DNA of 64,000 nt from Amycolatopsis sp. 195334CR (GTDB lineage: Bacteria; Actinomycetota; Actinomycetes; Mycobacteriales; Pseudonocardiaceae). The stretch spans positions 2,480,001 through 2,544,000 of the forward strand of contig NZ_JAFJMJ010000001.1 in assembly GCF_017309385.1 (NCBI RefSeq), read 5' to 3'. Position numbers and translations under genes: made by a program. This document shows, piece by piece, positions 12,380 to 20,226 of this stretch (position 1 is its first letter; the number at the start of each line of letters is the position of its first letter). A model generated the notes under the pieces. The model made no database searches. It was not told where the DNA came from and saw nothing but the letters and a program-made list of their open reading frames with translations.

Positions 12380-13518
12380 CCCGAGGCTCCCTTCGGCACG
12401 CGGATCTCCCACTCCGTGCCCGCTCCGGGCGCGGTGTCCAGGCTGATCGTGCCACCCAATCCGGTGACCCGGTCCTGGATGGACTTGGCCACGCCCAGCC
12501 GGCCTTCGGCGCGGGCCCGGTCCAGCCGTCCGTCGGGAATGCCGGGACCGTCGTCGCGCACCGATACGATCACCTCGTCCCCGAGGTCCTCCAGGAGCAC
12601 CCACGCCTGGGCGCCCTCGGCGTGCTTCGCGACGTTGGCCAGTGCCTCGCGCACGGCGTCGGCCAGTTCGGTGGTGACGTGGGCGGGCAGCGAAACCGGA
12701 CCGGCCGGGCCGGAGATGTGCACGGTCGACGTGCCGAGCAACTGCAACGCCGCGCGCAGGTCGGCCGTCTCGTCCGTGGGCCGCGTCGGCTCGGTGGTGA
12801 CCAGCGCGCGCAGCGCGATCTCCTGCTCACCGGCCAGTTCCGCGAGTTCCGCCGCCTCGCCGCCCAGTTCGGCACCGCGCTTGCGGACGCGCGCGAGCAC
12901 CTGGAGCACGCTGTCGTGGATCGACCGCGCCAGCCGTTCGCGTTCCGCGGTGGCCGCCTCCGTGCGCAACGCCTGGGCCAGCGCCGAACCGGAGCGCCGT
13001 GCGGTGCTCGCGGTCATCCCGATCAGCAGGCCGCTGGCCACCAGCAACACCCCGTCCCGGGCCACGTCGACGGTGAACTCCCCGCGCGCGAGCCCGGTGC
13101 ACAACGCGATCACCAGCCCACCGGCCAGCCCGCCGACCGCGCCGAACCGGGCACCGGCGACCAGCGGGGGCACGGCCGCCCAGACGGTGGTGATCAGCGG
13201 AGCCGCCGCGGCGGCTTGCGCGTCGGACAGGATCCACGGCGAGGTCAGCACCAGGAACGCGGTGAACCCCACGTCGGCGACCACCAGCCAGCGCCACCGC
13301 CACCGCAGCGCCTCACGGGCGTAAACCAGGCTGGTCAGCACGGTCCAGGCGGCCATCACGCCGAGCACCAGCCAGGCGAGCCAGGCGCGGCGGTACTCGT
13401 CCTGGTGCACCACGCCGATCCCGGCGGCGAACAACCAGGTCAGCACCCGCAGCCCGATCGCGCCCCACCACAGCGGTGAGGCGAGGTCACGCGGGGTGGG
13501 GCCGAACCGCGCGGTCAC
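12376..13518 (-). CDS. Two-component sensor histidine kinase (NarL-partner type)
   Basis: A 380-residue membrane kinase. About five or six membrane helices fill residues 15-165 with little extracytoplasmic sequence, then a HisKA_3-type dimerisation domain with the phosphoacceptor His201 in RSIHDSVLQVLARV. The ATPase domain carries an N box (EALANVAKHAE) and G box (VRDDGPGIPDGRL). The layout suits sensing within the membrane or through a partner protein. GTG 13518 overlaps the stop of the AI-2E permease gene as GTGA, so the permease is a likely partner in the same pathway. The signal is unknown. Confidence 0.93.
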   Translation of the reverse strand: MTARFGPTPRDLASPLWWGAIGLRVLTWLFAAGIGVVHQDEYRRAWLAWLVLGVMAAWTVLTSLVYAREALRWRWRWLVVADVGFTAFLVLTSPWILSDAQAAAAAPLITTVWAAVPPLVAGARFGAVGGLAGGLVIALCTGLARGEFTVDVARDGVLLVASGLLIGMTASTARRSGSALAQALRTEAATAERERLARSIHDSVLQVLARVRKRGAELGGEAAELAELAGEQEIALRALVTTEPTRPTDETADLRAALQLLGTSTVHISGPAGPVSLPAHVTTELADAVREALANVAKHAEGAQAWVLLEDLGDEVIVSVRDDGPGIPDGRLDRARAEGRLGVAKSIQDRVTGLGGTISLDTAPGAGTEWEIRVPKGASG

Positions 13519-14714
13519 TGGTCCGGGTCGTCGCTGTCGTCGGTGGCCTTCGTGTTCGGCTCGGCGCTCTGGTCCTGCAGCACGTCCACGTCGGCCGGAT
13601 CGGGATCGCGTTCGTGCAGCAGCGACTTGATGCCGGAGTTGAGCACCGCCAGCAGCGGCACGGCGAGCAGCGCCCCGGCGATCCCGGCGGCGACCAGGCC
13701 CGCGGTGATCGCCAGCACCACGGCCAGCGGGTGCAGCTTCACCGCCCGGCCCAGCAGCAGCGGCTGCAGGATGTGGCTTTCCAGCTGCATCACCAGGATG
13801 ACCACGCCGAGCACAATCAGCGCGGTGACAAAACCGTTGGTGACCAGCGCGACCAGCACCGCCACCGCGCCGGTCAGCACGGCGCCGATGATCGGCACGA
13901 AGGCACCGAGGAAGACCAGCGTGGCCAGCGGGATCACCAGCGGTACCCCGAGGATCCACAGCCCGATGCCGATGCCGACCGCGTCCACCACGGCCACCGC
14001 CGCGGTCGCGCGCACGTAGCTGACCAGCGAGGCGAAGCCGCGGCGACCGGCCACGTCCACCCGGTTGCGCACCTGGCGCGGCACGCCGCGGGTGAGGAAG
14101 GTCCAGATCTGCTCGCCGCCGGCCAGGAAGAAGATCAGGATGAACAGCGTCAGCACGAACCCGGTGAGCACCTCGCCGACGGTGCCCGCGGTGGTCAGCG
14201 CGCTGTCGGTGATGGTGGCCTGGTTCTTCTTGAGGAAGTCGATGGCCTGGTTGATGAAGTCCTGGATCTGCGTCTGCCGCAGGTGCAGCGGACCGTTGAC
14301 CAGCCAGTCCTCGATCTGGTCGAGGCTGTCGGTGAGCTGCTGCTGCAGTGCGGGCAGGCCGCTGGTGAACTGCGCGACGACGAAGGTGAGCAATCCGCCG
14401 AGCAGGCCGAGCCCGCCGATCAGCACGATGCCCGCGGCCAGTCCCCTCGGCAGCCCGGCCTTGACCAGCCAGCCGACGCCCGGCGCCATCAGCGCGGCCA
14501 GCAGCAGCGCGATGGACAGCGGGATGACCACCACCGACAGGTAGCCGACCAGCCAGACGATCACGTACAACGCGGCGATCACCACGAGGAACCGCCAGGC
14601 GAGCGCGGCGCCGATCCGCAGACCGCGGGGAACGACGGTGGTCACGTCGAGCTCGACCGGCAGTCCGGGGTAGTCGGGGGCGGAAACGGCGGGCTTCTTC
14701 TCCTGCTCCGGCAC
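13515..14714 (-). CDS. AI-2E family transporter (PerM/TqsA-like permease)
   Basis: About 399 residues with the AI-2E family layout: membrane helices in the N-terminal third (WRFLVVIAALYVIVWLVGYL onward), a central soluble segment with LPALQQQLTDSLDQIEDWL, then further helices including GAFVPIIGAVLTGAVAVLVA and the family hallmark QLESHILQPLLLGRAVKLHP. The C-terminus is a charged Asp-rich tail. Members export small molecules or work as cation antiporters, so the substrate is open. GTG 14714 is one of several possible starts; TTG 14723 is close by. It heads the coupled operon permease-kinase-regulator. Confidence 0.88.
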   Translation of the reverse strand: MPEQEKKPAVSAPDYPGLPVELDVTTVVPRGLRIGAALAWRFLVVIAALYVIVWLVGYLSVVVIPLSIALLLAALMAPGVGWLVKAGLPRGLAAGIVLIGGLGLLGGLLTFVVAQFTSGLPALQQQLTDSLDQIEDWLVNGPLHLRQTQIQDFINQAIDFLKKNQATITDSALTTAGTVGEVLTGFVLTLFILIFFLAGGEQIWTFLTRGVPRQVRNRVDVAGRRGFASLVSYVRATAAVAVVDAVGIGIGLWILGVPLVIPLATLVFLGAFVPIIGAVLTGAVAVLVALVTNGFVTALIVLGVVILVMQLESHILQPLLLGRAVKLHPLAVVLAITAGLVAAGIAGALLAVPLLAVLNSGIKSLLHERDPDPADVDVLQDQSAEPNTKATDDSDDPDQ

Positions 14715-14973
14715 ATCCGACAACTTAGTCGGCGGGCGGGCAGGCCAGCAGGCAGACGGCCGGAAACGCCGCGCTCGATCACCCTCGGTGAGAGCCGGCG
14801 ACACCGTGTGCTTTTCACACGATCGGGCCATCAAGGCGGTTCGAAGTCGCGTTCGCGGGGTCCCTTGGTCCAGTCTCGGTGTCGCGCCAACGGAACGTGA
14901 TCACCTCACACCCTGAGTATCCGAGTTCGGATGCCTGGCGCCCGGAACACCCCAGACCGAGGAGTGCACGCAG

Positions 14974-15918
14974 GTGGCGGAAGTGGCGGCGAACCAGCGA
15001 GGCGCGAAGCGCGCCGGTCGCTGGACTTCGCGCGCCCTCCTGGTCGCCGGTGGTGTGCTCGCCGGCACCGCGGCCGCCTGGGCCTTCGCCACCGGCGCCT
15101 CCGCCGCCGACGCCCCGGTCGCCCCCGAGACCGACACCGCCGATCTCACCCCGGTCACCGACGCCACCGTCCAGGGCCTGGATGACCTCACCGGCGGTGT
15201 CTCCGAACTGACCGGCGACACGGCCGGTGCCGCCGCCCTCGCCACCGAGGTCCCGTCGACCGGGTCCTCCCGCGCGGTGCGCGAAGACGTCACCACCGCG
15301 GTCGAGGAGTTCACCAGCGAGGCCGTGGTCCGCCCGGTCGAGCGCACCCTCGGCGCCTTCGAGCGCATCGCGCGCCAGCCCGAGGACGCGCCGAAGGTGA
15401 TCGAGCAGACGCTCACCCCGGCCAACCAGGGCGTGCAGGACTTCGGCAAGAAGTTCTGGGACTTCCTCCAGCCGAAGGGCGCGGACGCGCTGGCCGAACT
15501 GCCCCGGCTGCCGCTCGGCGGTGCCGACCCGGTGGTCCCGGAGCAGCCGGTGGCGGTGGTCCCCGACGCGGCCACCGACGTCTACACCGTCGCCGTTCCG
15601 GCCGGACCGCAGCAGGACGGCTCCTGGGTCGCCGGTTTCGACGCTTCGGGCGTCGCCGGTGCCACCGACGAAGGCGGCGCGGAAGACCGCGACCTGCCTT
15701 CCCCCTTCTCCCCGTTGCGCGCGCCGCTGGCGCCGCTCACCGTGCCCACCGTTCCCGGTGGCGGCAACTCCGCCGGCGGGCACTTCGACGGGCTGCTGAT
15801 CGGCGTTCCCGCCGGTTCGGCCGCCGCTTTCGACACCGCTCCGATCGGCTCCGTCCGGTCCGGTGTCCGTCACCTCATGGTGGAACCGGGCGCGCAGCCC
15901 GGCGTCACGCCTGACTGA
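14974..15918 (+). CDS. Secreted protein of unknown function
   Basis: A 314-residue protein with an N-terminal signal peptide (RALLVAGGVLAGTAAAWAF, cleavage likely after ATGASA). The mature part is rich in Ala, Pro and Thr, with helical stretches (TAVEEFTSEAVVRPVERTL) and a Gly/Pro-rich tail. Cysteines are absent. GTG 14974 has GAGGAG (14959-14964) 9 nt upstream. The gene lies just before the large repeat protein on the same strand, with 203 bp between, so the two may be surface partners. I recognise no family. Confidence 0.72.
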   Translation: MAEVAANQRGAKRAGRWTSRALLVAGGVLAGTAAAWAFATGASAADAPVAPETDTADLTPVTDATVQGLDDLTGGVSELTGDTAGAAALATEVPSTGSSRAVREDVTTAVEEFTSEAVVRPVERTLGAFERIARQPEDAPKVIEQTLTPANQGVQDFGKKFWDFLQPKGADALAELPRLPLGGADPVVPEQPVAVVPDAATDVYTVAVPAGPQQDGSWVAGFDASGVAGATDEGGAEDRDLPSPFSPLRAPLAPLTVPTVPGGGNSAGGHFDGLLIGVPAGSAAAFDTAPIGSVRSGVRHLMVEPGAQPGVTPD

Positions 15919-16121
15919 TTCCCGCGCGGGGTGAGGACGGTTCGCGTCCCCCGCCGGTCACCTTTCCCGTGCCGGTAGTGCGCGTTCTCTCCTGAGTTCA
16001 CCCCGCGGTTTCCCGCGGTCGCTTCCGACCGCAGCCCTCCTCCCGCACGCAAGCTGCAGAACGCAGGTTGCCAGGGAGCCACGAACCCGCAAGGGAACCC
16101 AAGGAAAAGGAGAACCCCTCA

Positions 16122-19100
16122 ATGCAGACCTGGGCGAAGCGCGGCATCAAGACCGCGCTGGTCACGGGTGGTTTGCTGATGCTGGGTACCGGCATCGCTT
16201 CTGCCGACGAGAGTGTCAACCCCGACAGCCCCGCCGGCCCGCTCGACGCGAACCTGACCATCCCGGTTCAGATCGAGAAGAACGCGCTCGGCACCCCCGT
16301 CGGGCAGGCCAACCTCCCCGGATACAAGGGTGAGATCAGCACCAAACCGGTCACCAAGCCGCTCAAGGGCGTGACCGACCCGCTGCAGAAGGCCGCCGCT
16401 CCCGCCTCGAAGGCGACCGCCCCGCTCGCGGGCGTGACGGACAAGGCCACCAGCGCGCTTTCCTCGGCCACCAACAAGGCCGGTGCCTCGCGCACCACGC
16501 AGGACGTTTCCGGGCTCGACATCGACCAGACCGATGACGTGCTCAAGGGCAACAAGGTCGACCTCGACGTCACCGCGCCGATCCAGATCTGCGGCAACGC
16601 GATCGGCGTCATCGGGGACGCGGTCATCGAAGACGCGGACTGCGGCACCCAGTCGTACTCCAACGACGAGAACACCACCACCGACGGCAAGTACTCCGGC
16701 CTGGCGGGCAACGTGGTCGCGCTGGACTGGGCGCTGCCCATCCAGATCGCGGGCAACGCCGGCGGTGTCGCGGGCGGGTCCGGCTACACCTCGGGCAGCG
16801 CGGAGCAGGAGGTGACCGAGACCGGCGACATCAGCACGGACGGCACCGGCTCCGGCGCCTCCGGCAACGTGGTGGCCCCGCAGTTCGCCACCCCGGTGCA
16901 GGTCACCGGCAACGCGGCCTCGTGGATCCTCGGCAACGCCTACAGCGAGTTCGACGCCGAGACCGAGGCCGAGTCCGGCGGCTGGATCCAGACCAACGGT
17001 GACGGCGGCGCGGCCACCGGCAACGTGGTCGGTGTGCCGATCGCGCTCCCGGTCAAGGTCAACGGCGTGGCGGCGGGGGCATGGGGCTCCGACGCCGACA
17101 CGGTGTCGCACTCCGAGGCCGACGCCACCGCGGGTGACACCACCCCCGGCCTCAACGACATCCCCGCCTACATCACCACCGAAGGCGACAAGGCGTTCCT
17201 GGCCGGGACCGTGGTCCAGCCGCAGGGCGCGCTCGTCGCCAACGTCGCGGGTGTCGCGGCGTCCTGGATCGGCAACGCCACCACCGGCAACGCCCAGGAC
17301 GACGACTACGCCGGCGCCGGCTCCTCGTCCAGCGAGGTCGAGGCCGGTGGCTTCTCCAGCACCACGGGCCAGGACGGCGCGGGCTCGGGCAACATCGTCG
17401 ACCTGCCGGTCGCGGTCCCGGTCGAGGCCTTCGGCATCGGCGGCACCTACATCGGCAACGCGCACGCCGCGCACGACAACGAGACCGACGCCAAGGCCGG
17501 TGAGGGCACCTACACCACCGGTGACGGCTCCTTCCTCGCCGCCAACACGGTGACCGGGCAGCCCGCGCTGACCGGTGAGGTGTTCGGCATCGGTGGCTCG
17601 CACATCGGGAACGCCTCGGGCACCTCGACCGAGACCAAGACCGTGCAGGCCGGTGGGTACAACGGCAGCACCGGCAACGACAGCTCCGGCTCGGGCAACA
17701 TCGTCCAGGTCCCGCTGGCCGTGCCCGCCGAGATCTTCGGCGTCGGCGGCTCGTACATCGGGCAGGGCGAGGGCACCGCGTCCGAGACCAAGGAGATCAC
17801 CGCCGGTGGCGGTGGCAACACCGACGACGACAACGGGTTCGGCAGCTCGAACCTCGTCGCCACCCCGCTGGCCGTGCCGGCGCAGGTCTTCGGCATCGGC
17901 GGCTCGCACATCGGCCGCGGCACCGGTGAGGCCACCACCGACACCCAGGTGACCGCCGGCGACGACGTCAAGGCGACCGGCAGCGAGGCCGGCGCCGCGG
18001 GCAACATCGGCTTCGTGCCGGTGGCGCTCCCGGTGCAGGTCCACGGCATCGGCGGGTCCTTCATCGGGACCGGCTTCGGCACCAGCGAGAACCTGACCGA
18101 CGCGGTGGCCGGCGGCGACGCCACCACCGACGGCCAGGACGCGGCCGTGGCGGGCAACATCATCCAGGCGCCGTTCGCCGGTGCCGCCAACGTGTTCGGC
18201 TCCTCGGCCGGGCTGGCCGCGCTCGTCGGTGGCGACACCGCCGAGAACGACGTGGTCGCGCAGGCCGGTGGCGACTCCGAGACCAACGGTGACGGCAGCG
18301 GCCTGGGCGGCAACGTGATCAGCGCGCAGGGCCTGCCCATCGCGCAGGTCTTCGGCGACGCGGTGGCCGCGGCCGCCAAGGCCACCGGCTCGGCCTCGAA
18401 CACCACCGACGCCACCTCCGGTGGGGACATCACCACCTCGGGCGTCGACGGTGCCTTCTCGGGCAACATCCTGGACGTGCCGGCCGCCGCGGTCGCGCAG
18501 GTCTTCGGCAACGCGGTCGCCGCCGCCGGGGTGGCCGACGCCACCGCCGACAACGTGACCAGCGGCAAGGCCGGTGGCGACACCACCACCGCGGGCACCA
18601 TGGACAGCGTGTCCGGCTTCGACGGGCAGATCCCCGTCGGCGTCGTGGCGCAGGTCTTCGACGTCCCGCTGGCCCTGCTGGGGGTGGCGAACGCCGAGGC
18701 CACCAACGCCACCGACATCATGGTCGACAACCGCGAGCCGCAGATCGACCTGGGCATCGACGGTTCGGAGCTGCCGCTCGACGCGGTGCCCTCGCTGAAC
18801 TGGCCGTCGCTGCCGGGCGTGCCGGGGGTTCCGACCGGACTGGGCCGCGACGGCGGCATGGGCCTGCCCACCAACGGGCTGCCCACCCCGGGCCTGCCCT
18901 CGGTCCCGTCCCTGCCGGGTCTGCCGTCCCTGCCGGGTGCGGCGGCGCAGCGCAACGACGCCCCGATGCCGTCCGTGCCGGGCGTGCCGGAGCTGGGCAC
19001 CGTGACCGACCTGCCCTCGACCGGCACCCTGCCGATCGAGCTGTCGGGCGTGAGCCTGGACTCGGTCAACGTGTTCGGTGGCGGCCTGCCGACCGACGCG

Positions 19101-19379
19101 CTGCTGGGTGGCGGCCTGCCGACCGACGCGATCCTCGGCGGTGGCCTGCCCACCGACGCGGTCCTGGGTGGCGGCCTGCCCACCGGTGACGTGACCGGCG
19201 GCGTGCTGCCGACCGACGCGCTGCTGAACGGCGGCCTGCCGGTCGACCCGGCCACCGTCATCCCGATGGCCACCGAGCGCCAGGACGTGCCGACCGCCGA
19301 CGTGCCCGCGATGGCGCAGGTCGACGGCCCGCTGAACGTGTTCCAGCGCATCCTGTCGGTGCTGACCGGCGGCAAGTGA
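16122..19379 (+). CDS. Large secreted protein with about 14 chaplin-like repeats
   Basis: A 1085-residue protein with a signal peptide (KTALVTGGLLMLGTGIASA, then DESV). From about residue 143 to 865 it carries about 14 units roughly 50-65 residues apart, with core GNxVxxPxAxPVQVxGNA followed by a Gly/Ser/Thr/Asp-rich linker. Unit 1 keeps two cysteines, Cys157 and Cys174, in PIQICGNAIGVIG, closely matching the Cys-containing Streptomyces chaplin repeat; later units lose the cysteines and drift to FGIGGSHIG. The last 200 residues are Pro/Gly-rich with repeats of GGGLPTDALL. The start ATG 16122 has AAAGGAG 9 nt upstream. No sortase motif is visible. A cell-surface or hyphal-coat role is inferred. 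Confidence 0.85.
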   Translation: MQTWAKRGIKTALVTGGLLMLGTGIASADESVNPDSPAGPLDANLTIPVQIEKNALGTPVGQANLPGYKGEISTKPVTKPLKGVTDPLQKAAAPASKATAPLAGVTDKATSALSSATNKAGASRTTQDVSGLDIDQTDDVLKGNKVDLDVTAPIQICGNAIGVIGDAVIEDADCGTQSYSNDENTTTDGKYSGLAGNVVALDWALPIQIAGNAGGVAGGSGYTSGSAEQEVTETGDISTDGTGSGASGNVVAPQFATPVQVTGNAASWILGNAYSEFDAETEAESGGWIQTNGDGGAATGNVVGVPIALPVKVNGVAAGAWGSDADTVSHSEADATAGDTTPGLNDIPAYITTEGDKAFLAGTVVQPQGALVANVAGVAASWIGNATTGNAQDDDYAGAGSSSSEVEAGGFSSTTGQDGAGSGNIVDLPVAVPVEAFGIGGTYIGNAHAAHDNETDAKAGEGTYTTGDGSFLAANTVTGQPALTGEVFGIGGSHIGNASGTSTETKTVQAGGYNGSTGNDSSGSGNIVQVPLAVPAEIFGVGGSYIGQGEGTASETKEITAGGGGNTDDDNGFGSSNLVATPLAVPAQVFGIGGSHIGRGTGEATTDTQVTAGDDVKATGSEAGAAGNIGFVPVALPVQVHGIGGSFIGTGFGTSENLTDAVAGGDATTDGQDAAVAGNIIQAPFAGAANVFGSSAGLAALVGGDTAENDVVAQAGGDSETNGDGSGLGGNVISAQGLPIAQVFGDAVAAAAKATGSASNTTDATSGGDITTSGVDGAFSGNILDVPAAAVAQVFGNAVAAAGVADATADNVTSGKAGGDTTTAGTMDSVSGFDGQIPVGVVAQVFDVPLALLGVANAEATNATDIMVDNREPQIDLGIDGSELPLDAVPSLNWPSLPGVPGVPTGLGRDGGMGLPTNGLPTPGLPSVPSLPGLPSLPGAAAQRNDAPMPSVPGVPELGTVTDLPSTGTLPIELSGVSLDSVNVFGGGLPTDALLGGGLPTDAILGGGLPTDAVLGGGLPTGDVTGGVLPTDALLNGGLPVDPATVIPMATERQDVPTADVPAMAQVDGPLNVFQRILSVLTGGK

Positions 19380-19398
19380 GCTGACGCGCAACTGAACG

Positions 19399-19440
19399 AA
19401 ACCGGGCCCCGGAGCAGCCAGCTCCGGGGCCCGGTTTTTT
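19399..19440 (+). terminator. Rho-independent terminator of the repeat-protein gene
   Basis: A 17-bp GC-rich stem (19399-19415 with 19421-19437), loop AGCCA and a six-T run 19435-19440 lie 20 nt after the stop. It separates this gene from the convergent dioxygenase gene and may serve both strands, but the T tract favours plus-strand transcripts. Confidence 0.93.
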
Positions 19441-19446
19441 GGTGTG

Positions 19447-20226
19447 TCAGCCCAGTTGCACGGACCGCTTCGCCAGCCCGTACCAGAACCCGTCGATCAC
19501 CGTCTTGGGCGCGCCACCCGCTTCGCCGCCCGCGCCGAGCGAGACGAACAGCGGTGCGAAGTGCTCGATCCGCGGGTGCGCCAGGCCGGGGGCCGGTGCC
19601 TTGTGCGTGAAGTCGAGGATCGCGTCCACGTCGTTCTTCGCCAGCACCTGCGCGCCCCAGTCGTCGAATTCGGCGGACCACGCGGGCGGTTCGTGGTCGG
19701 CGTCGCGGTGCATGTCGATCCCGCTCAGGTTGTGCGTGAAGAAGCCGCTGCCGATGATCAGCACACCCTCGTCCCGAAGCGGCGCCAGCTTGCGGCCCAG
19801 GTCGAACAGCTGCGCCGGGTCGAGCGAGGGCATGGAGATCTGCAGCACCGGCACGTCGGCGTCGGGGAACATCTCCACCAGCGGCACGTACGCGCCGTGG
19901 TCCAGCCCGCGTTCCGGGTCCTCGTGCACCGGGGTTTCCGCCGAGCGCAGCAGCTTCCGCACCTTCTCGGCCAGCGCCGGTGCCCCGGGAGCGCGGTACT
20001 GGACTTGGTAGTAGCGCTCGGGGAAGCCCCAGAAGTCGTAGATCAGCGGCACCGTGGTGGTCGCGCCGATGGTCAGCGGCGCCTCCTCCCAGTGCGCCGA
20101 CACGATCAGGATCGCCGTCGGCCGCGTCAGCCCGGCCGACCAGTCGGCGAGCTGCCGGGTCCACGTCACGTTGTCGGCGAGCGGCGGCGCGCCGTGGCTG
20201 AGGTAGAGCACGGGTGCGGCGGTCAT
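19447..20226 (-). CDS. DODA-type extradiol aromatic ring-opening dioxygenase (YgiD-like)
   Basis: A 259-residue LigB/DODA-family enzyme. Conserved features are LYLSHGAPPL near the N-terminus, IVSAHWEEAPLTIGATTTVP, the LDHGAYVPLVEMFPDADVP block with its catalytic His, and GSGFFTHNL, which together supply the metal-binding histidines. Members use Fe(II) or Zn(II) to cleave catecholic substrates such as DOPA. The start ATG 20226 has GGGAGA upstream. The gene is divergent from a PadR regulator gene, with an AT-rich palindrome between them. The true substrate is unknown. Confidence 0.92.
   Translation of the reverse strand: MTAAPVLYLSHGAPPLADNVTWTRQLADWSAGLTRPTAILIVSAHWEEAPLTIGATTTVPLIYDFWGFPERYYQVQYRAPGAPALAEKVRKLLRSAETPVHEDPERGLDHGAYVPLVEMFPDADVPVLQISMPSLDPAQLFDLGRKLAPLRDEGVLIIGSGFFTHNLSGIDMHRDADHEPPAWSAEFDDWGAQVLAKNDVDAILDFTHKAPAPGLAHPRIEHFAPLFVSLGAGGEAGGAPKTVIDGFWYGLAKRSVQLG

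Follow-up and report, generated by a model that had tools for sequence, protein, structure and literature searches.

What a protein made of many chaplin-like repeats might be, and what it could do for the cell that secretes it, is the question raised by a gene of Amycolatopsis sp. 195334CR that encodes 1085 residues within a 64,000-nucleotide stretch of DNA (contig NZ_JAFJMJ010000001.1, positions 2,480,001 to 2,544,000; hereafter the window, meaning this whole stretch, from whose first letter coordinates are counted). The chaplin domain is a small domain that coats aerial filaments in Streptomyces, where it occurs once in short proteins and twice in long ones, with two conserved cysteines per domain. 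Streptomyces chaplins form amyloid and are surface-active, and the long members end in a sortase signal with a hydrophobic segment. An initial annotation, made from the sequence of the window, had read the protein as a giant, mostly cysteine-free relative of these proteins, and the units of its repeat array are indeed close to certainly homologous to the chaplin domain PF03777.

The whole protein matches PF03777 at 53.7 bits (cut-off 21), and no other Pfam family passes its cut-off. When the protein is cut into its 14 units (Table 1) the unit-by-unit search proposed in the initial annotation succeeds in part, in that units 1 and 6 pass, five others score 15.6 to 20.6 bits, under the cut-off, and seven of the 14 give no match. 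Profile–profile comparison with hhalign extends the likeness to the full set: each unit family was aligned with 22 chaplin domains, chosen by a cysteine-bearing pattern, and with controls consisting of the reversed family and 10 column shuffles each. The scores run from 20.3 to 42.2 and the controls are lower in 14/14 units, with the tightest margins in units 14 and 2 and the highest control in the reversed family of unit 10. For the reciprocal search, 50 units taken from the protein and eight of its relatives were made into a profile, which matches five of 298 genomes of the phylum at E <= 1e-6, namely the genome of origin, one with another repeat protein (L104/L127) and three in which the match falls on chaplin genes already known from PF03777. 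Chance is an unlikely source of the likeness, given the E-value of 1.9e-14 for the whole protein together with the outcome of the profile–profile comparison and its controls. NCBIfam matches neither the protein nor four homologs, a silence that is uninformative since a chaplin open reading frame is also unmatched there; database records already label many array homologs with PF03777.

The initial annotation counted about 14 repeats over residues 143–865, and a unit model finds 14 copies over residues 143–866 with independent E-values (i-E) of 2e-19 to 1e-8; as the model was built partly from units of the same family, it gives the count and is not an independent test. The spacing is 51–53 residues, except at unit 4 (62) and unit 5 (61). 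As in Streptomyces chaplins (PF03777, ChpA–C), the unit follows the pattern GN-V--PV--PV-VCGN---V-G--N----C and the protein has a signal-peptide-like start. Cys157 and Cys174, 17 apart as first described, are its sole cysteines and lie in unit 1, and units 6–10 carry the FGIGGSHIG-type variant that had been noted for the later repeats. There are also clear departures from chaplins. The number of units is 14 (13–18 across relatives) as against one or two pattern matches per open reading frame in the multi-chaplin loci sampled, and cysteines are found in just one unit of the 14, whereas the 22 chaplin domains, picked by their cysteine pattern, all have the pair. Moreover, the first 25 residues of units 1–13 have a grand average of hydropathy (GRAVY) of 0.21 to 1.26 (chaplins 0.88) and the remainder of units 1–12 one of -0.15 to -1.08, and the net charge per 100 residues is -9.7 in the repeat region and -2.3 in chaplin domains. 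Each unit can thus be described as a chaplin core joined to an acidic half, the latter, a difference from chaplins, giving a rigid period of 51 residues. The hydrophobic coat first suggested as a possible role fits in part: the first halves of units 1–13 are hydrophobic, but the repeat region as a whole is neutral in hydropathy and acidic.

The constancy of this arrangement was followed in 199 homologs (120 proteins and 79 loci), reduced to 157 once near copies were removed. One locus, L044 of Saccharomonospora sp. CUA-673, has a broken frame, with a stop at residue 788 and an end unlike its relatives, and was excluded from the alignment and the unit counts. Fourteen units are found in 126 of the 157, 13 in six, 15 in 21 and 18 in four; the last are Kutzneria-type proteins (L067, L070, L080 and L087), in which 204 extra residues, exactly four periods, stand in the unit-12 stretch. 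A spacing of exactly 51 is kept at units 9 and 10 in 157/157 homologs, at unit 7 in 155 and at units 8 and 11 in 152 each; the variation is one or two residues at units 1–3 and 6 and larger at units 4 and 5. The period of the middle units has almost no insertions. The units also keep their rank: between the Amycolatopsis protein and 10 others, units of the same rank have mean scores of 54.9–113.8, as against 29.3–39.6 for other ranks, and the same-rank unit is the best match for 14, 13 and 12 of 14 units in three nearer relatives and for 4–10 of 14 in seven far ones. Judged from these alignments, the array is old, near-fixed in number and rigid in period. Twenty-three of the 157 homologs have no cysteines, 104 have them solely as within-unit pairs, and the other 30 have single or outside-unit cysteines too, all but two of these also with a within-unit pair. 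The pairs sit in different units in different lineages, so that the pair in unit 1 here is in other units of relatives; in most of the examples viewed they stand at chaplin positions (e.g. PVNICGN...C in L051), with a shift in L067 and L080.

Relatives with many repeats, which the initial annotation had suggested seeking, were found in Amycolatopsis and other genera of its family, the named ones including Prauserella, Saccharothrix, Lentzea, Kutzneria, Umezawaea and Actinokineospora. Database proteins matching at E <= 1e-3 number 452 (query included; 120 listed). In a sample of 200 Pseudonocardiaceae genomes (own genome included, completeness of at least 95% requested), 148 match the whole-protein alignment at E <= 1e-10, 109 of them strongly (E <= 3e-66) and 39 weakly (E 1e-40 to 1e-10), and PF03777 is found at E <= 1e-3 in 75, mostly in frames of about 900–1500 residues. 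A typical short chaplin (87 and 104 residues; E <= 1e-10) was found in two of the 200, G048 and G175, both of which have the giant protein too; at most 30 candidates were scored per genome in this count, such that a weak short chaplin could escape it. As a positive control, among 248 genomes of the phylum, 11 from one genus, called Streptomyces-like solely on this basis, have 6–15 chaplin matches each at E <= 1e-5. Outside the family the whole-protein alignment finds weak matches (E <= 1e-10) in three of the 248, and in the own genome the giant gene is the sole one found by PF03777 (E <= 1) or by unit matches (E <= 0.01). In other words, the array is a trait of Pseudonocardiaceae, which are mostly without an ordinary short chaplin. 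The other repeat proteins, L104 and L106, belong to other actinobacterial families and are from small-genome actinobacteria; they resemble the array in their cysteine-free GN-V--PV--P-T--GNA--V-G- units and similar leaders, and differ from it in their shorter open frames (497 and 681 residues), their serine/glycine or Pro/Gly spacers and a C-terminus that combines a hydrophobic segment with a sortase-like signal.

AlphaFold2 gives the repeats a confident all-beta fold, with a predicted local distance difference test (pLDDT) score of 95 for a five-unit model. The predicted fold is most like beta-solenoids, and the array is likely, on the strength of this model, to be one. The likeness to beta-helix adhesins, however, lies at Z values that are common for unrelated models, and a Foldseek search against the PDB and viral models returns nothing at E <= 0.001, so that no fold is assigned by match. 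The initial annotation held that repeats scoring only with unrelated beta-helix families would speak against kinship with chaplins; in sequence the score is with PF03777, and it is the predicted structure that resembles beta-solenoids. A further beta region lies near the N-terminus, with a pLDDT of about 90 over residues 41–70 and, by eye, a degenerate chaplin-like stretch at around residues 43–60, for which Pfam has no match.

Around the array the protein is more variable, save at its very start. The frame given in the initial annotation is exact: an AAGGAG box stands nine bases 5' of the ATG, and homologs keep the start as MQTWAKRG. The 28-residue leader, judged by eye to be signal-peptide-like, probably exports the protein. 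It has 38 variants in the 157 homologs, the most frequent in 39, and an RNA element as the cause of its conservation was considered and rejected, in that its four-fold degenerate sites are at least as variable as elsewhere (majority third base 0.69 over 13 sites in the leader vs 0.77 over 94 sites); by this codon measure, selection on the leader acts on the peptide and not on RNA. Directly 5' of the ribosome-binding site, CCCGCAAGGG at 16086–16095 could form a GCAA loop on a three-pair stem and recurs in the majority of the 80 upstream regions aligned. A simple pattern for the BldN-type promoter motif finds nothing in any of 80 upstream sequences, each of 205 bases, no sigma-70 promoters or terminators are predicted at 14700–19700, and an Rfam scan of 14700–19600 yields no match over the gathering score. 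An antisense open frame of 1090 residues (16119–19391, minus strand) opposite the array gene is probably a shadow of high GC content. The linker that follows the N-terminal beta region is 23–119 residues long in homologs (counted from residue 75), and the tail, in which the GGGLPTDALL-like units first described are present, is 4–459 residues from residue 890 onward. Unlike the long chaplins, the protein has no C-terminal sortase signal with a hydrophobic segment at its end; an LPSTG in the mid-tail is far from the C-terminus and has no hydrophobic segment. Two of the 157 homologs pass a crude hydrophobicity test for a C-terminal anchor and five have L(A/P)xTG within their last 70 residues, one of them, P0070 (labelled partial), being in both lists.

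Table 1. Features of the array gene and its surroundings in the window. For the units, bits are those of PF03777 with the unit alone (cut-off 21), and hhalign gives the score against chaplins vs the best control.
Feature	Position	Strand	Remarks
AI-2E family transporter, conserved neighbour	13515..14834	-	Pfam PF01594
Upstream partner gene, 314 residues, signal-peptide-like start, end QPGVTPD	14974..15918	+	Conserved C-terminus type
Ribosome-binding site AAGGAG	16107..16112	+	From sequence; conserved across 80 aligned upstream regions
Giant chaplin-like array protein, 1085 residues	16122..19379	+	Translation from ATG; PF03777 E 1.9e-14
Near-invariant leader, 28 residues, signal-peptide-like by eye	16122..16205	+	Conserved in homologs
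N-terminal beta region, residues 41–73, with degenerate chaplin-like stretch	16242..16340	+	AlphaFold2
Linker, residues 74–142	16341..16547	+	Length varies between homologs
Unit 1, Cys157/Cys174 pair	16548..16706	+	28.8 bits, passes; hhalign 42.2 vs 15.4
Unit 2	16707..16862	+	Pfam alone: none; hhalign 21.2 vs 14.8
Unit 3	16863..17018	+	Pfam alone: none; hhalign 26.6 vs 17.0
Unit 4	17019..17204	+	18.7 bits, under cut-off; hhalign 24.0 vs 14.4
Unit 5	17205..17387	+	Pfam alone: none; hhalign 27.2 vs 11.4
Unit 6	17388..17540	+	32.1 bits, passes; hhalign 35.4 vs 13.6
Unit 7	17541..17693	+	No PF03777, chance-level DUF5305 row (E 0.22); hhalign 29.1 vs 13.9
Unit 8	17694..17846	+	20.3 bits, under cut-off; hhalign 40.6 vs 18.4
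Unit 9	17847..17999	+	15.6 bits, under cut-off; hhalign 32.6 vs 19.8
Unit 10	18000..18152	+	17.1 bits, under cut-off; hhalign 41.9 vs 24.7 (reversed)
Unit 11	18153..18308	+	Pfam alone: none; hhalign 26.7 vs 13.0
Unit 12	18309..18461	+	Pfam alone: none; hhalign 20.3 vs 11.6
Unit 13	18462..18614	+	20.6 bits, under cut-off; hhalign 24.4 vs 10.8
Unit 14, short, degenerate	18615..18719	+	Unit model i-E 1.2e-8; Pfam alone: none; hhalign 21.3 vs 15.1
Variable Pro/Gly/Leu tail, LPTDALL-like units	18720..19376	+	No C-terminal sortase-type anchor

The surroundings of the gene are conserved as well. Among the best 80 of 132 confirmed array loci, a listing compiled partly through the leader pattern and hence biased to conserved leaders, 77 have an AI-2E gene within the fetched 6 kb upstream; in loci of the Amycolatopsis type it stands directly past the partner, and in those of the Lentzea and Saccharothrix types it is further off. 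A partner with a QPGxTPD-like end is also found upstream of the array in 77 of the 80, a narrow C-terminal motif giving 73 of these and a wider one the other four (L050, L052, L054 and L068); neither motif finds it in L067 or L070, and the sequence of L082 is too short. Seven of the 39 weak-match genomes (plus two strong) were viewed, in loci fetched at 15–16 kb. Here proteins with closely similar leaders of the MQTWAKRG or MHPWAKRG types (L118–L124) occupy the same locus, near the AI-2E gene (7/7) and the partner; in six of the seven, of 418–561 residues, the unit model finds no repeats, and in L124, of 786 residues, it finds seven degenerate units. A tie between partner and array, suggested by the narrow motif (73/80 array loci vs 0/6 array-less ones), was undone by L121, which was seen to hold the gene, and by the wider motif, which over 2500 bases finds the partner in 7/7 of the array-less or degenerate loci, at 182–235 bases in five and at 1.6–1.9 kb in L122 and L123. 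A first leader pattern had given the partner in 47 of 86 loci. Leader, partner and place are constant, therefore, while the body varies, and since the partner persists without the array, it would act for the protein with the leader, whether or not this has an array. A C-terminal motif shared with the array proteins was sought in seven proteins, one of them (L100) unrelated, and it scores above shuffled controls in L115 (E 1e-4) and, by a narrow margin, in L116 (0.021, as against 0.053 for the best of 140 shuffles), but in no other; by eye the C-terminus of L119 also resembles that of array proteins. L100, from the own genome (C2:811816-811914), has a weakly similar leader (MHRYVRRGLMAATITGGF...; E 0.002) and a body of G/S/N/D-rich repeats with recurring CVLAECHTTV stretches.

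What, then, might the array be for? A role as a structural component of the surface is slightly more likely than not, and on balance we favour for the protein a covalently joined, chaplin-derived, amyloid-like surface rod, its role, assembly and localisation being inferred. Multiplication of the chaplin domain would have given a fixed array, 14 units long, within one secreted surface protein; the leader would export it, and the units would form one continuous, all-beta, solenoid-like rod, as predicted. The stacking that in Streptomyces chaplins takes place between separate molecules would here take place within one chain, giving a covalently pre-joined piece of amyloid-like fibre on the outer surface of the filament, for which the functional amyloids CsgA (of curli) and FapC are among the closest known systems. 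The hydrophobic first half of each unit may serve in stacking or in contact with the wall and the acidic second half may face the solvent, with the cysteine pair, where kept, closing a loop within a single unit. Because the protein lacks a sortase-type anchor, wall attachment or assembly is proposed to fall to its variable Pro-rich tail and to the small partner encoded upstream. In its boldest form, which we put forward tentatively and with some doubt, Pseudonocardiaceae swapped a self-assembling chaplin film for a pre-polymerised chain, its 14 units stacked as a beta-solenoid of fixed length. Several results weigh against the rod: the repeat region is not hydrophobic overall (GRAVY 0.05 vs 0.45 in chaplin domains), some members of the family lack the array, and the partner gene also stands at array-less loci.

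The same solenoid could instead be the rigid stalk of a surface adhesin or spacer that presents its variable tail to substrates or cells, in parallel with autotransporter passengers and filamentous haemagglutinins, the chaplin ancestry being mere history. We consider this rather unlikely. Pfam matches of the protein include no adhesin domain, there is no sequence match among PDB chains (up to E 10), and, in contrast to the autotransporter and two-partner-secretion beta-helix adhesins UpaB, Ag43 and EtpA, neither an outer membrane nor a translocator is expected in its host. Less probable again is a wall or matrix scaffold in which leader, ends and partner are what matters, with the array as one of several exchangeable bodies and its hydrophobin-like past irrelevant. 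The six loci in which a similar leader, AI-2E gene and partner accompany an array-less body, and the one with the degenerate seven-unit body, argue for it, as do the conservation of the leader as a peptide, the C-terminal motif weakly common to two array-less proteins (and by eye to L119) and a partner that is also present at 77/80 array loci; the strong constraint on the number and period of the units would, however, be needless in an exchangeable filler. That the repeats are of low complexity, rich in G, A, T and N, and resemble chaplins by composition alone is highly improbable. Their composition (G 18%, A 16%, T 10%) and database names such as 'PE-PGRS family' and 'beta strand repeat' might suggest as much, but the reversed and column-shuffled controls, which rule out a match by chance or composition, the chaplin genes reached by the reciprocal search and the cysteine pairs at chaplin positions all stand against it. 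In this regard the first of those names is a database label: unlike PE-PGRS proteins, the protein has no PE domain at its N-terminus, none appearing in its Pfam matches up to E 10.

If the rod reading is right, the array protein becomes a candidate filament coat for a large, antibiotic-producing family, in just two of whose 200 sampled genomes a typical short chaplin was found. The depth of the alignment allows a confident fold of linked chaplin units, such that amyloid packing would become testable through mutation of contacts, and, were the swap of film for chain also true, that predicted fold would be a template for the stacking of chaplins in amyloid fibrils. A covalent amyloid-like rod of fixed length would be useful as a material. 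The locus itself displays an unusual evolutionary pattern, in which a near-invariant leader, partner and neighbourhood surround an exchangeable body.

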